A stretch of 64,000 bases of DNA. It comes from Verrucomicrobiaceae bacterium (lineage in GTDB: Bacteria; Verrucomicrobiota; Verrucomicrobiia; Verrucomicrobiales; Akkermansiaceae). Where the stretch lies: contig JAIXWR010000039.1 of the NCBI GenBank assembly GCA_027491155.1, positions 62,001 through 126,000 of the forward strand, in the 5' to 3' direction. The notes beneath the pieces are model-generated. The model was not told the DNA's origin. It worked only from the letters and a program-made list of their open reading frames with translations, and ran no database searches. The position numbers and the translations under genes are program-made. Positions 3,313 through 62,955 of the stretch are shown here, piece after piece. Within the stretch, counting starts at the first letter, position 1. Each line of letters begins with the position of its first letter.

Positions 3313-3410
3313 AAACGGAGTGCCGCCTTGCAGGCGGCATGAAGGCGGGTTGTCGCCTTTCAGGCGACATGCTTGGGCTGCGGTCTCCGGAGCGAAGTGC
3401 GACAGCCCGT
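3313..3410. repeat. Intergenic hairpin array
   Basis: Two successive hairpins share one core but have different, self-complementary stems: TGCCGCCTTGCAGGCGGCA at 3321-3339 and TGTCGCCTTTCAGGCGACA at 3351-3369. A weaker third inverted pair (GGGCTGCGG against GCGACAGCCC) follows to about 3408. The array fills the spacer between thiG and the next gene and belongs to the intergenic palindrome class seen elsewhere in the window. It could also act as a bidirectional transcription stop, though no T-run follows. Confidence 0.7.
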
Positions 3411-21656: not shown

Positions 21657-21920
21657 ATGCCTCCGAAGAAAAAGCCCAACGCGAAGCCCCTCGCCGGCCC
21701 CGCCTTGGTCAAAGAGGTCTGCCGCCGGATCCGCCTGGCACGCAGCCTGTGGGACGCGCATCGAAATGCCGCCTGCCGCGGCGAGCGGGAAAAAGCCATC
21801 GCGCTCTATGAAACCCTGAGCGAGGCGGAGAAAGAAAAGGTCCCGCAGACCCTCCGCGTCTGGCTTCGCTACCGCAGCGAGAAATACTTCGGCGAAGGCC
21901 GCACGCCGCCCGGCGGATAG
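21657..21920 (+). CDS. Small basic protein of unknown function
   Basis: An 87-residue cytoplasmic protein, strongly charged: a Lys/Pro-rich N-terminus (MPPKKKPNAKP) and helices containing VKEVCRRIRLARSLWDAHRN and EKAIALYETLSEAEKEKVP. No family is recognised. It begins nine bases after the dnaB stop, so it is probably cotranscribed with the helicase gene. Codon use matches the surroundings, which supports a genuine gene despite the short length. Confidence 0.6.
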   Translation: MPPKKKPNAKPLAGPALVKEVCRRIRLARSLWDAHRNAACRGEREKAIALYETLSEAEKEKVPQTLRVWLRYRSEKYFGEGRTPPGG

Positions 21921-21926
21921 GACCTC

Positions 21927-22043
21927 CTTGGACTGCGGCAGCCTGCTGCCGCTTTCCCTTCGTCAGCCTGCTGACGAGCCCTGGCCCGAATCCTCCACAG
22001 CAGGCTGTGGCAACAAAGCGGCAGCAGGCTGCCGCAGTCCAAG
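21927..22043. repeat. Perfect 29-bp inverted-repeat element with four hairpins
   Basis: The arms 21927-21955 and 22015-22043 are perfect inverted copies. Four palindromes share a CAGCCTGCTG core (or its complement) with different matched flanks: GCGGCAGCCTGCTGCCGC, CGTCAGCCTGCTGACG (21961-21976), CCACAGCAGGCTGTGG (21995-22010) and GCGGCAGCAGGCTGCCGC. The element lies between two convergent small genes. The outer word CTTGGACTG is shared with the element at 8201. Confidence 0.93.
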
Positions 22044-22068: not shown

Positions 22069-22362
22069 CTATTCCGCCTCCTTCTTCACCCGGTGCCCGG
22101 GCTTCGCCAAGATCTCGACGTAAACCTCGGCACCGCCCGCCGCCTGCACCTCCGCGATCGCCTTCTCCAGATCGCCCGGATGCTTCACCGTGGCATCTTC
22201 GGCCGCCTTCCCGACCCGGCAGTCGAAGTCCCAGAAATCGACGCCCTCCGGCAAGGGCTTCCGCCGCTCGCGCTTCAGGTACTTGCGGATCTCGTGCTTC
22301 ACCGCATCCAGCACCAGCCCCGGCTTGCGGTCCGGAATCACGAGAGCGAACTTCTTCTTCAT
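22069..22362 (-). CDS. DUF6172-like small protein
   Basis: A 97-residue soluble protein. The central stretch EIRKYLKRERRKPLPEGVDF with WDFDC after it, and the C-terminal YVEILAKPGHRVKKE, match my memory of the DUF6172 family; its function is unknown. The start at 22362 (MKKKFALVIPD) is preferred over an in-frame ATG at 22488, whose extra 42 residues look non-coding. It converges with the gene at 21657 across the palindromic element and is oriented with malQ, about 220 bases downstream of it. Confidence 0.72.
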   Translation of the reverse strand: MKKKFALVIPDRKPGLVLDAVKHEIRKYLKRERRKPLPEGVDFWDFDCRVGKAAEDATVKHPGDLEKAIAEVQAAGGAEVYVEILAKPGHRVKKEAE

Positions 22363-22507
22363 CGGCGGTGCTTGTGCCGCCCGTCGCGCCGCTTGTCCAC
22401 TGCGATTCCCTCCGCCGCCCCACGCGATCCCGGAATACCCTCGCTGCCGGTTCCCGTGCAGGATGTCCCCGATGAGCCTCCCGGCCATCCTCGCTCCTTG
22501 AGCGCGA

Positions 22508-32682: not shown

Positions 32683-33049
32683 GGTCGGCGGGCAAGCCCT
32701 TGGGTTTCAGGCAGGAATCGCCCGAAGCCTAGAACCCCCGCTGCGTCGCGGCAAAGCGAATCTTCCCTCTGGAGTGCGACGGCACGACGTCGCTTTGGCT
32801 CGGGGTGACGCTCGCCTCACCCCGGGGATACGGACCACCACCAACGGCAATCCGTGGCCGGCAGAGCAGAGAAGCCGCACCCCGAGCGAAAGCTGCGTCG
32901 TGCCGCAGCACTCCAGACGGTCGCTCGTCCGGCGGGGCAGGATGATCTGCAACCGCAAGGAACCGCTCACCTCACGTCACATCCGAATGCCCCCCTGAAT
33001 CCACGTGGTCATCCCTAAAGGCATCGGGCTGAAGACGGGACGGCCTCCA
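32683..33049. other. Intergenic region between the lyase and parE genes
   Basis: The 367 bases contain the 148-base inverted-repeat element (32769-32916) and otherwise no ORF with coding character. The left end should hold the promoter of the lyase gene, but no clear -10/-35 pair stands out. No RNA gene is recognised. Confidence 0.6.
32769..32916 (+). repeat. 148-bp inverted-repeat element, copy A
   Basis: The outer arms (32769-32800 and 32887-32916) pair and begin with CTGGAGTGC. The left arm carries GCGACGGCACGACGTCGC. The right arm, read in complement, carries GCTGCGGCACGACGCAGC: the same core with two exchanged base pairs. A central hairpin (GGGGTGA 32802-32808 with TCACCCC 32817-32823) follows. 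A second full-length copy, in the opposite orientation and of the same length, lies at 62808-62955. Confidence 0.9.
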
Positions 33050-62807: not shown

Positions 62808-62955
62808 ATGGACTGCTGCGGCACGACGCAGCTTTGGCTTGGGCTACGGACGCTTTGCTCTACGGGCCACGGATCGCATTGGCGGCTCATCCGCGGCCGA
62901 TGGGTTGAGGCGGATTCACCCATAGCCAAAGCGACGTCGTGCCGTCGCACTCCAG
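62808..62955 (-). repeat. 148-bp inverted-repeat element, copy B
   Basis: Read on the minus strand this matches the element at 32769-32916 along its whole length: arms opening CTGGAGTGC, the hairpin GCGACGGCACGACGTCGC, a second dyad (GGGTTGA 62902-62908 with TTCACCC 62915-62921 on the plus strand), a common ATCCGTGGCC word and a closing hairpin GCTGCGGCACGACGCAGC. It lies between two convergent genes. Confidence 0.9.

Follow-up and report, generated by a model that had tools for sequence, protein, structure and literature searches.

The intergenic element described here is very probably a short non-autonomous repeat of the REP/REPIN type that is, or formerly was, mobilised by a subclade of RAYTs (REP-associated tyrosine transposases), which are single-strand HUH nucleases. 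It belongs to a repeat family, its stems change in paired fashion beside a constant core, RAYT genes lie next to copies in other genomes, the core is specific to one RAYT clade, and at one orthologous site the element is present in some genomes and absent from others. A first-pass annotation of the window (the whole stretch of DNA analysed, 64,000 nucleotides long) had proposed a REP-like site for a dedicated transposase, a suggestion borne out by the RAYT subclade found beside or between copies elsewhere, which forms a single clade (support 100/100).

The element consists of a unit of about 52 nt and its inverted copy (Table 1). Each unit reads, in order, the foot TTGGACT, the hairpin GCGGCAG-CCTG-CTGCCGC, TTT, and a second hairpin that carries the core CAGCCTGCTG on a different stem. 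The outer arms, initially annotated as perfect over 29 bases, are indeed exact reverse complements over that length and extend imperfectly to 44 nt. The description of four palindromes built on one core was equally accurate: CAGCCTGCTG is found at 21939 and 21964 on the + strand and at 21998 and 22022 on the - strand (two of the four cores read CAGCAGGCTG on the + strand), with the matched flanks GCGG/CCGC, CGT/ACG and CCA/TGG. This core occurs five times in the window versus 0.15 expected, a number reached in 0 of 100 shuffles. As a single strand the element folds at -86.5 kcal/mol as RNA and at -53.7 kcal/mol as DNA (z -10.8 in both cases), and the lowest-energy fold of either is one long hairpin formed by both arms, not four hairpins. 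It is located between the 3' ends of the convergent ORFs P0006 and P0005, beyond which lie dnaB and a gene for 4-alpha-glucanotransferase.

Table 1. Features of the element and its neighbours, in positions of the window.
Feature	Position	Strand
Complete REPIN-like element, with two units of two hairpins each in inverted orientation and the feet outward	21927..22043	.
Left outer arm, exact reverse complement (29 nt) of 22015-22043	21927..21955	+
Right outer arm	22015..22043	-
Foot GGACT, adjoining the outer hairpin on its 5' side, at the position of the REP guide tetranucleotide	21930..21934	+
Outer hairpin GCGGCAG-CCTG-CTGCCGC, then TTT	21935..21952	+
Inner hairpin CGT-CAGCCTGCTG-ACG	21961..21976	+
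Inner hairpin CCA-CAGCCTGCTG-TGG, read on the - strand	21995..22010	-
Outer hairpin, right unit	22018..22035	-
Right foot GGACT	22036..22040	-
Upstream neighbour P0006, small conserved ORF, stops 6 bp short of the element	21657..21920	+
Convergent neighbour P0005, DUF6172 ORF	22069..22488	-

The element is a short palindromic repeat present in many copies, not a unique sequence. A covariance model (R1) built on 136 distinct units found nine units in its own genome (G000), where BLAST with the element returned matches on C1, C3, C20 (twice), C27, C28 and C34. The bare 10-mer core has 77 matches in this genome, and 24 of the 30 sites inspected are located in unrelated sequence. Within the genus, units at E <= 1e-8 number 120 in G390, 47 in G327, 45 in G393, 24 in G392, 22 in G178, 9 in G000, 8 in G391 and one in G307, with none in 10 of the 18 genomes; 7 of the 17 congeners of G000 carry between 1 and 120 units each, counts for which the best candidates, at most 150 per genome, were scored, and the 120 of G390 may be low. 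Allowing one mismatch, the 20-mer CTGCGGCAGCCTGCTGCCGC was matched in 12 of 387 genomes of the phylum. Five of these encode a RAYT scoring above 300 bits (see below) and hold 5 (G215), 26 (G237), 9 (G234), 20 (G327) and 6 (G066) matches, and the other seven hold 6 (G000), 4, 2, 1, 1, 1 and 1; matches devoid of a GGA foot, for example in G184 and G361, look like products of chance.

The exact 24-mer is present in at least 118 GTDB stretches. Among the 80 matches listed, all are Verrucomicrobiota or Planctomycetota by record title and all are MAGs except Brevifollis gellanilyticus (L148); the Planctomycetota copies come from MAGs and could reflect misbinning. The same 80 listed loci, out of at least 118, hold 49 pairs of neighbouring units no more than 230 bp apart, of which 39 are inverted (+-), the arrangement of HH dimers with feet outward. 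The 24-mer had no match in viral contigs, and the repeat had none in plasmids and phages. L157, from a Planctomyces sp. MAG, and other Planctomycetota loci contain the exact 24-mer, and the cognate RAYT also occurs in Planctomycetota MAGs. The RAYT of L157 groups with L230 and L233, RAYTs of the window's own family (98/95 in the tree), a sequence grouping that suggests horizontal transfer or misbinning.

A difference between congeners that may reflect gain or loss of the element is seen at the junction that it occupies in the window. P0005 was found in 12 loci, seven of which have a homologue of P0006, adjacent in six and 1.4 kb apart in L267. Of the six genomes in which the two genes adjoin, G000 and G393 carry the element, and G307, G387, G327 and G391 lack it. 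The G393 copy lies at the same site in inverted orientation (alignment 100.5 flipped versus 61.0 unflipped) and is distinguished from the window's copy by two substitutions, a three-base gap and edge bases, the stems being identical. Eight orthologous sites were picked by eye from flank matches. Both inner hairpins are readable in both genomes at four of them, and two of these four are flipped (window/L344 and L345/L390, with only the left flank clearly orthologous in the latter), which is too few for a rate; the remaining four, where one genome or both carry a truncated copy, agree in orientation. Inversion in place could occur through recombination or template switching between the arms, or through excision followed by reinsertion. 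An asymmetry between the two ends of an element, with different stems at each, was also considered and is not claimed: 0 of 32 complete elements have one and the same 3-bp stem at their two ends, with p values of 0.14 for all 32 and 0.51 for the 20 distinct combinations, and the corresponding values for 2 bp are 0.002 and 0.06.

The matched flanks had been read as compensated change under selection for hairpins. This reading stands for the two or three pairs, in some hairpins up to four, next to the core, and fails for the stem as a whole. In 85 distinct inner hairpins, drawn from 136 units of which 17 have no clean inner core, pairs 1 to 6 are Watson-Crick in 81, 77, 49, 42, 29 and 35 hairpins, respectively; after shuffling, the means are 32.7, 32.5, 25.1, 22.9, 21.9 and 23.1 and the maxima 48, 47, 39, 36, 34 and 35, and the effect weakens from pair 3 outward. 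A MAFFT alignment of the 136 distinct units gives a covariation of 0.265, versus 0.087 for shuffled (0/500) and at most 0.073 for slid alignments. Two pairs of the outer helix, which was favoured by both the search pattern and the unit-picking pattern, change on both sides and five are invariant, and 7 of 8 pairs of the inner helix change on both sides, a count lowered by CAGCCCTGCTG variants that lie out of register in the alignment.

Hairpins that were not chosen by the search pattern behave likewise. The stretches, at least 118, yielded 230 such hairpins, 215 of them distinct (181 inner and 34 outer), with pair 1 Watson-Crick in 174 of 181 inner and 33 of 34 outer hairpins. The 34 outer hairpins have pairs 1 and 2 paired in 33 and 32 cases, and 28 are matched over four pairs, with the stems GCGG (10), GCTG (9), GCTA (5) and GCGT (4).

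Among close relatives (116 units: 84 from G390, 30 from G393 and two from the window), we asked whether flank changes are unpaired as often as paired. Near the core, paired changes are far commoner; from pair 4 outward, they are not. The inner hairpins of B type (78 units) have at pair 1 C-G in 60, T-A in 16, T.G in one and G.A in one; pair 2 is G-C in all 78, pair 3 is C-G in 77 and T.G in one, and at pair 4 the bases match in 46 and do not in 32. Those of A type (35 units) have at pair 1 A-T in 33, A.C in one and C.T in one, C-G at pairs 2 and 3 in all 35, and a pair 4 that is paired in one and mismatched in 34. One further unit is of neither type and two are without an inner hairpin. The pairing constraint spans about three pairs beside the core, the very CGT/ACG and CCA/TGG of the first-pass annotation.

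Outer stems are less regular. The 5' arm of the outer hairpin carries one additional unpaired base (e.g., GCGTG or GCGGG before the core) in 62 of the same 116 units (51/84 in G390, 11/30 in G393 and 0/2 in the window), 53 having a regular outer arm and one another form. The extra base recurs in 10 of 10 units read in G178 and in both C20 copies of G000, and its frequency speaks against outer-stem perfection as a general rule; units of this kind were excluded by the pattern behind alignment A2. The loci concerned are L361-L412 (G390), L341-L360 (G393), L413-L420 (G178), and L004 and L006 (G000). Units beside the RAYT of L302 (G392) read TTGGAGTGCGTG-TAGCCTGCTA-CCGC and combine the extra outer base with a swapped core pair, TAG-CCTG-CTA; hence even the outermost core pair can change in matched fashion.

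Matched stems could also be produced by templated copying from arm to arm (quasipalindrome correction or template switching) and not by selection on independent mutations; as such copying is possible, pairing alone does not prove function. We regard this explanation as unlikely. It agrees with the inversion of elements in place at orthologous sites, and with the first pair of B-type hairpins, which is nearly always one of two Watson-Crick combinations, one of the two mismatched units being the T.G intermediate. Nevertheless, templated copying would not respect a limit of about three pairs, and mismatches at pair 4 are frequent in B-type and almost universal in A-type hairpins. Moreover, unpaired outer intermediates exist (2 of 136 units), outer stems with an extra base are common, and the conserved foot and the link with RAYTs are left unexplained. 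Copying between arms may act together with selection.

A structure acting at the RNA level, either a bidirectional terminator or an mRNA 3' stabiliser between convergent genes, is very unlikely as the primary role of the element. The convergence of the neighbouring ORFs is in line with such a role, as are the terminator-like outer hairpin and TTT on both strands (3 found, two of them overlapping, versus 0.7 expected) and the conservation of tail positions T25 and T27 at 90% or more. However, the stem is followed by three T only, which makes it weakly terminator-like, none of the 13 Rfam matches listed reaches its gathering score, and wobble mismatches, which selection on RNA would be expected to favour, are not clearly in excess at pairs 1-3 of the distinct inner hairpins (10 G.T versus 6 A.C). 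This alternative, raised by the first-pass annotation, drew no support from mismatch balance or Rfam, and it does not account for the repeat nature of the element or its association with RAYTs. An RNA effect could be a secondary result of an inserted copy.

Mobilisation by a RAYT, the reading that we favour, is argued for by the genes that accompany the repeat in other genomes. The check proposed at the outset, a search for RAYT genes beside copies, located one beside or between copies in L148, L157, L159, L163 and L178. Y1-like ORFs occur in 7 of the 80 loci listed, these five and two (L133 and L137) in which the ORF is kilobases away from the repeat. The cognate protein is about 194 aa long and has HYH and Y...N motifs. 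In the PDB, its predicted structure (pLDDT 85) matches best 4er8 (E 1.5e-9, TM 0.56/0.65), in which a RAYT is complexed with a REP hairpin, and the ISDra2 and IS608 transposases come next; by sequence, 4er8 is the only convincing PDB match (E 7e-5). Against NF047646 (REP-associated tyrosine transposase), four proteins score 74.5 to 80.7 bits for a cut-off of 80, one of the four being over it, and the model matches 28 of 28 members of alignment A3. It is extremely improbable that the repeats instead represent the termini of an IS200/IS605 insertion sequence or an IS200/IS605-derived MITE: the Y1 HUH fold and the rank of ISDra2 and IS608 directly after 4er8 would suit it, but the RAYT model takes in the entire family, whereas the IS200 model NF033573 matches 6 of the 28 members only, and weakly (best E 1.7e-6), P0001 reaches 14 bits with the same model, under its cut-off of 55, and Pfam Y1_Tnp gives no match for two of the four RAYT proteins and scores under its cut-off for the other two.

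RAYT genes and the repeat tend to occur together, though not one to one. At E <= 1e-15, a profile built from four RAYTs (A1) detects genes in 65 of the 387 genomes of the phylum, and their scores fall into two separate ranges: G215, G237, G234, G327 and G066 exceed 300 bits and all others score 207 or less. Each of these five genomes has at least five matches to the 20-mer. Two of the five, judging by equal coordinates and flanks, are those of L163 and L159, so that the GTDB set is not independent; both loci were left out of the RAYT tree. Over the 387 genomes, RAYT and unit matches coincide in 39, with 26 of the 65 RAYT genomes having no unit match, 35 genomes having units only and 287 having neither (p 1.7e-16), at a loose unit threshold that also picks up related hairpin families. 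Within the genus, all three RAYTs above 300 bits (G327, G392 and G391) have units nearby.

The link extends to the core itself. In a tree of 33 RAYTs, the eight flanked by CAGC[CT][CT]GCTG hairpins constitute one clade (100/100), and other clades are accompanied by different tips in the same frame, e.g., GCTTGA, GCATGA, CTTG and TCCT. A strict unbroken GGA[CG]T-GC-stem-tip-stem hairpin is found in 23 of 30 RAYT loci (L230-L259), compared with 2 of 43 other Y1 loci, 1 of 24 other own-genome loci and 2 of 11 DUF6172 loci, the hits in the last two groups coinciding with genuine superfamily elements. A looser scan finds a hairpin within 450 bp in 24 of the 30, and the other six have GGA[CG]TGCG feet with hairpins that are longer or broken. 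The 43 loci, which came from PF01797 searches, were rejected as partners, the strict hairpin being present in L041 and L109 only; the cognate RAYTs either stay below the cut-off of the PF01797 model or give no score with it. In L041 (1-3234, G000:C5:58240-61473), a Y1 transposase of the window's own genome lies between direct copies of another double hairpin, GGAGTGCCGCCTTGCAGGCGGCA followed by a TCGCC-TTGGA-GGCGA hairpin. In L306 (790-2676, G388:C2), a RAYT lies inside a tandem array of modules of about 150 bp that alternates two hairpin types, GCGCCGA-CACG and GCGGGG-GCATGA.

With the A1 profile, no RAYT of the cognate subclade was found in G000, the best match being 185.7 bits, and for this reason the copies in that genome are probably orphans. 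This only A1 match, P0007 at C4:38050, is associated with GCATGA/GCACGA loops, whose hairpins also show matched stem swaps (GCGCCG/CGGCGC, GCGACG/CGTCGC and GCTGCG/CGCAGC). Three more repeats of the same hairpin superfamily lie in the window, at 3316, 32770-32914 and 62809-62953; two are complete inverted elements of the P0007 type, with GCACGA loops and the stems GCGACG/CGTCGC and GCTGCG/CGCAGC, and the third is a GGAGT-GCCGCC-TTGCA-GGCGGC unit. Besides G000 (9 units), genomes with units and no RAYT above 300 bits are G390 (120), G393 (45, in an assembly only 72% complete), G178 (22) and G307 (1). The best RAYT match of G390 reaches 172.9 bits, and that gene, like the one of G000, carries other loops. 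At the scale of the phylum, 7 of the 12 genomes with the 20-mer lack a RAYT above 300 bits, several of them having a single match. Loss of the RAYT, spread from elsewhere and assembly gaps are possible reasons for units without a cognate enzyme.

In the mechanism that we propose, each unit would fold while its strand is single during replication. The RAYT would recognise the individual bases of the GGACT foot and of the CCTG tip, would need only a paired stem beside the tip, and would then cut near the foot and move the element. If the tip is read by base and the stem by pairing only, the tip would stay constant and stem bases would change in matched pairs only. According to PMC8266576, two group 3 TnpA-REPs depend on particular loop bases, are impaired by a mismatch in the stem, and tolerate several complementary stem swaps with little effect, although some reduce cutting; for the E. 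coli TnpA-REP, a bulge is required and no particular loop sequence. By analogy, enzymes that read the loop would be expected to leave an evolutionary pattern of the kind observed here. A more speculative and still rather unlikely extension is a phylum-wide RAYT superfamily in which each clade reads its own tip (here CCTG) in the frame GGA[CG]T-GC-stem-tip-stem-GC-TTT with free stems, and in which single-strand processing rewrites both arms and inverts elements in place, keeping the repeats foldable.

The family shares several traits with the canonical GTAG REP/REPIN and RAYT (TnpA-REP) systems of E. coli, Pseudomonas and Stenotrophomonas: extragenic hairpin repeats that occur mostly as inverted pairs, a short conserved foot that immediately precedes the hairpin on its 5' side, and repeats on both sides of a Y1 HUH gene, an arrangement observed here in other genomes than the window's. 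Reading of the loop with a paired stem would resemble the biochemistry of group 3 TnpA-REPs, and the unpaired stem base recalls the bulge of E. coli REPs (both PMC8266576). In contrast, the foot is GGA[CG]T (GGACT or GGAGT) and not GT[AG]G, which places the repeat outside the GTAG REPs, and each end consists of two hairpins that share one core. A second parallel is offered by TnpA subclass 2.6 / Bertels group 5 and class 3 with "atypical secondary structures", that of an HUH enzyme without GTAG repeats that is flanked by other hairpins copied in the genome (PMC6006769). Compared by motif, WQ and Y[IV]HQN of the present RAYTs resemble the NH[LIV]H, WQ and YIH[QN]NP of subclass 2.6, but NHYH is found here and subclass 2.6 is mostly from Bacteroidetes (same source); the string "Verrucomicrob" does not occur in the main text of PMC6006769.

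A third parallel is provided by TIRtrons/TIRYT, RAYT-like genes flanked by TIRs, some of which are double palindromes and some of which form repeat families (PMC3733652). The likeness, one of description, lies in a RAYT-like gene with double-palindromic flanking repeats. The unit consensus, by reading, contains no GGGGWSAS motif; according to PMC3733652, that motif does not mark all TIRs. A C-terminal HTH extension characterises TIRYTs of subclass 2.1, and the protein here is about 194 aa in length. PMC3733652 also reports GTAG REPs in Opitutus terrae, a member of Verrucomicrobiota; these belong to the same phylum but are GTAG-tagged, whereas the present family is GGAC/GGAG-tagged. Our literature search found no description of this repeat, nor its sequence letters.

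These results extend RAYT/REP repeats to a large group of Verrucomicrobiota, and to some Planctomycetota, in a form that has another foot and two hairpins at each end. The repeat family constitutes an evolutionary record of the hairpin parts that are read, with tip and foot fixed, and the stem free but paired over about three bp. Natural stem variants, those with an extra base included, together with core-specific RAYT clades, make REP recognition directly testable. Finally, the inversion of copies in place raises a concrete question on how such repeats are processed.
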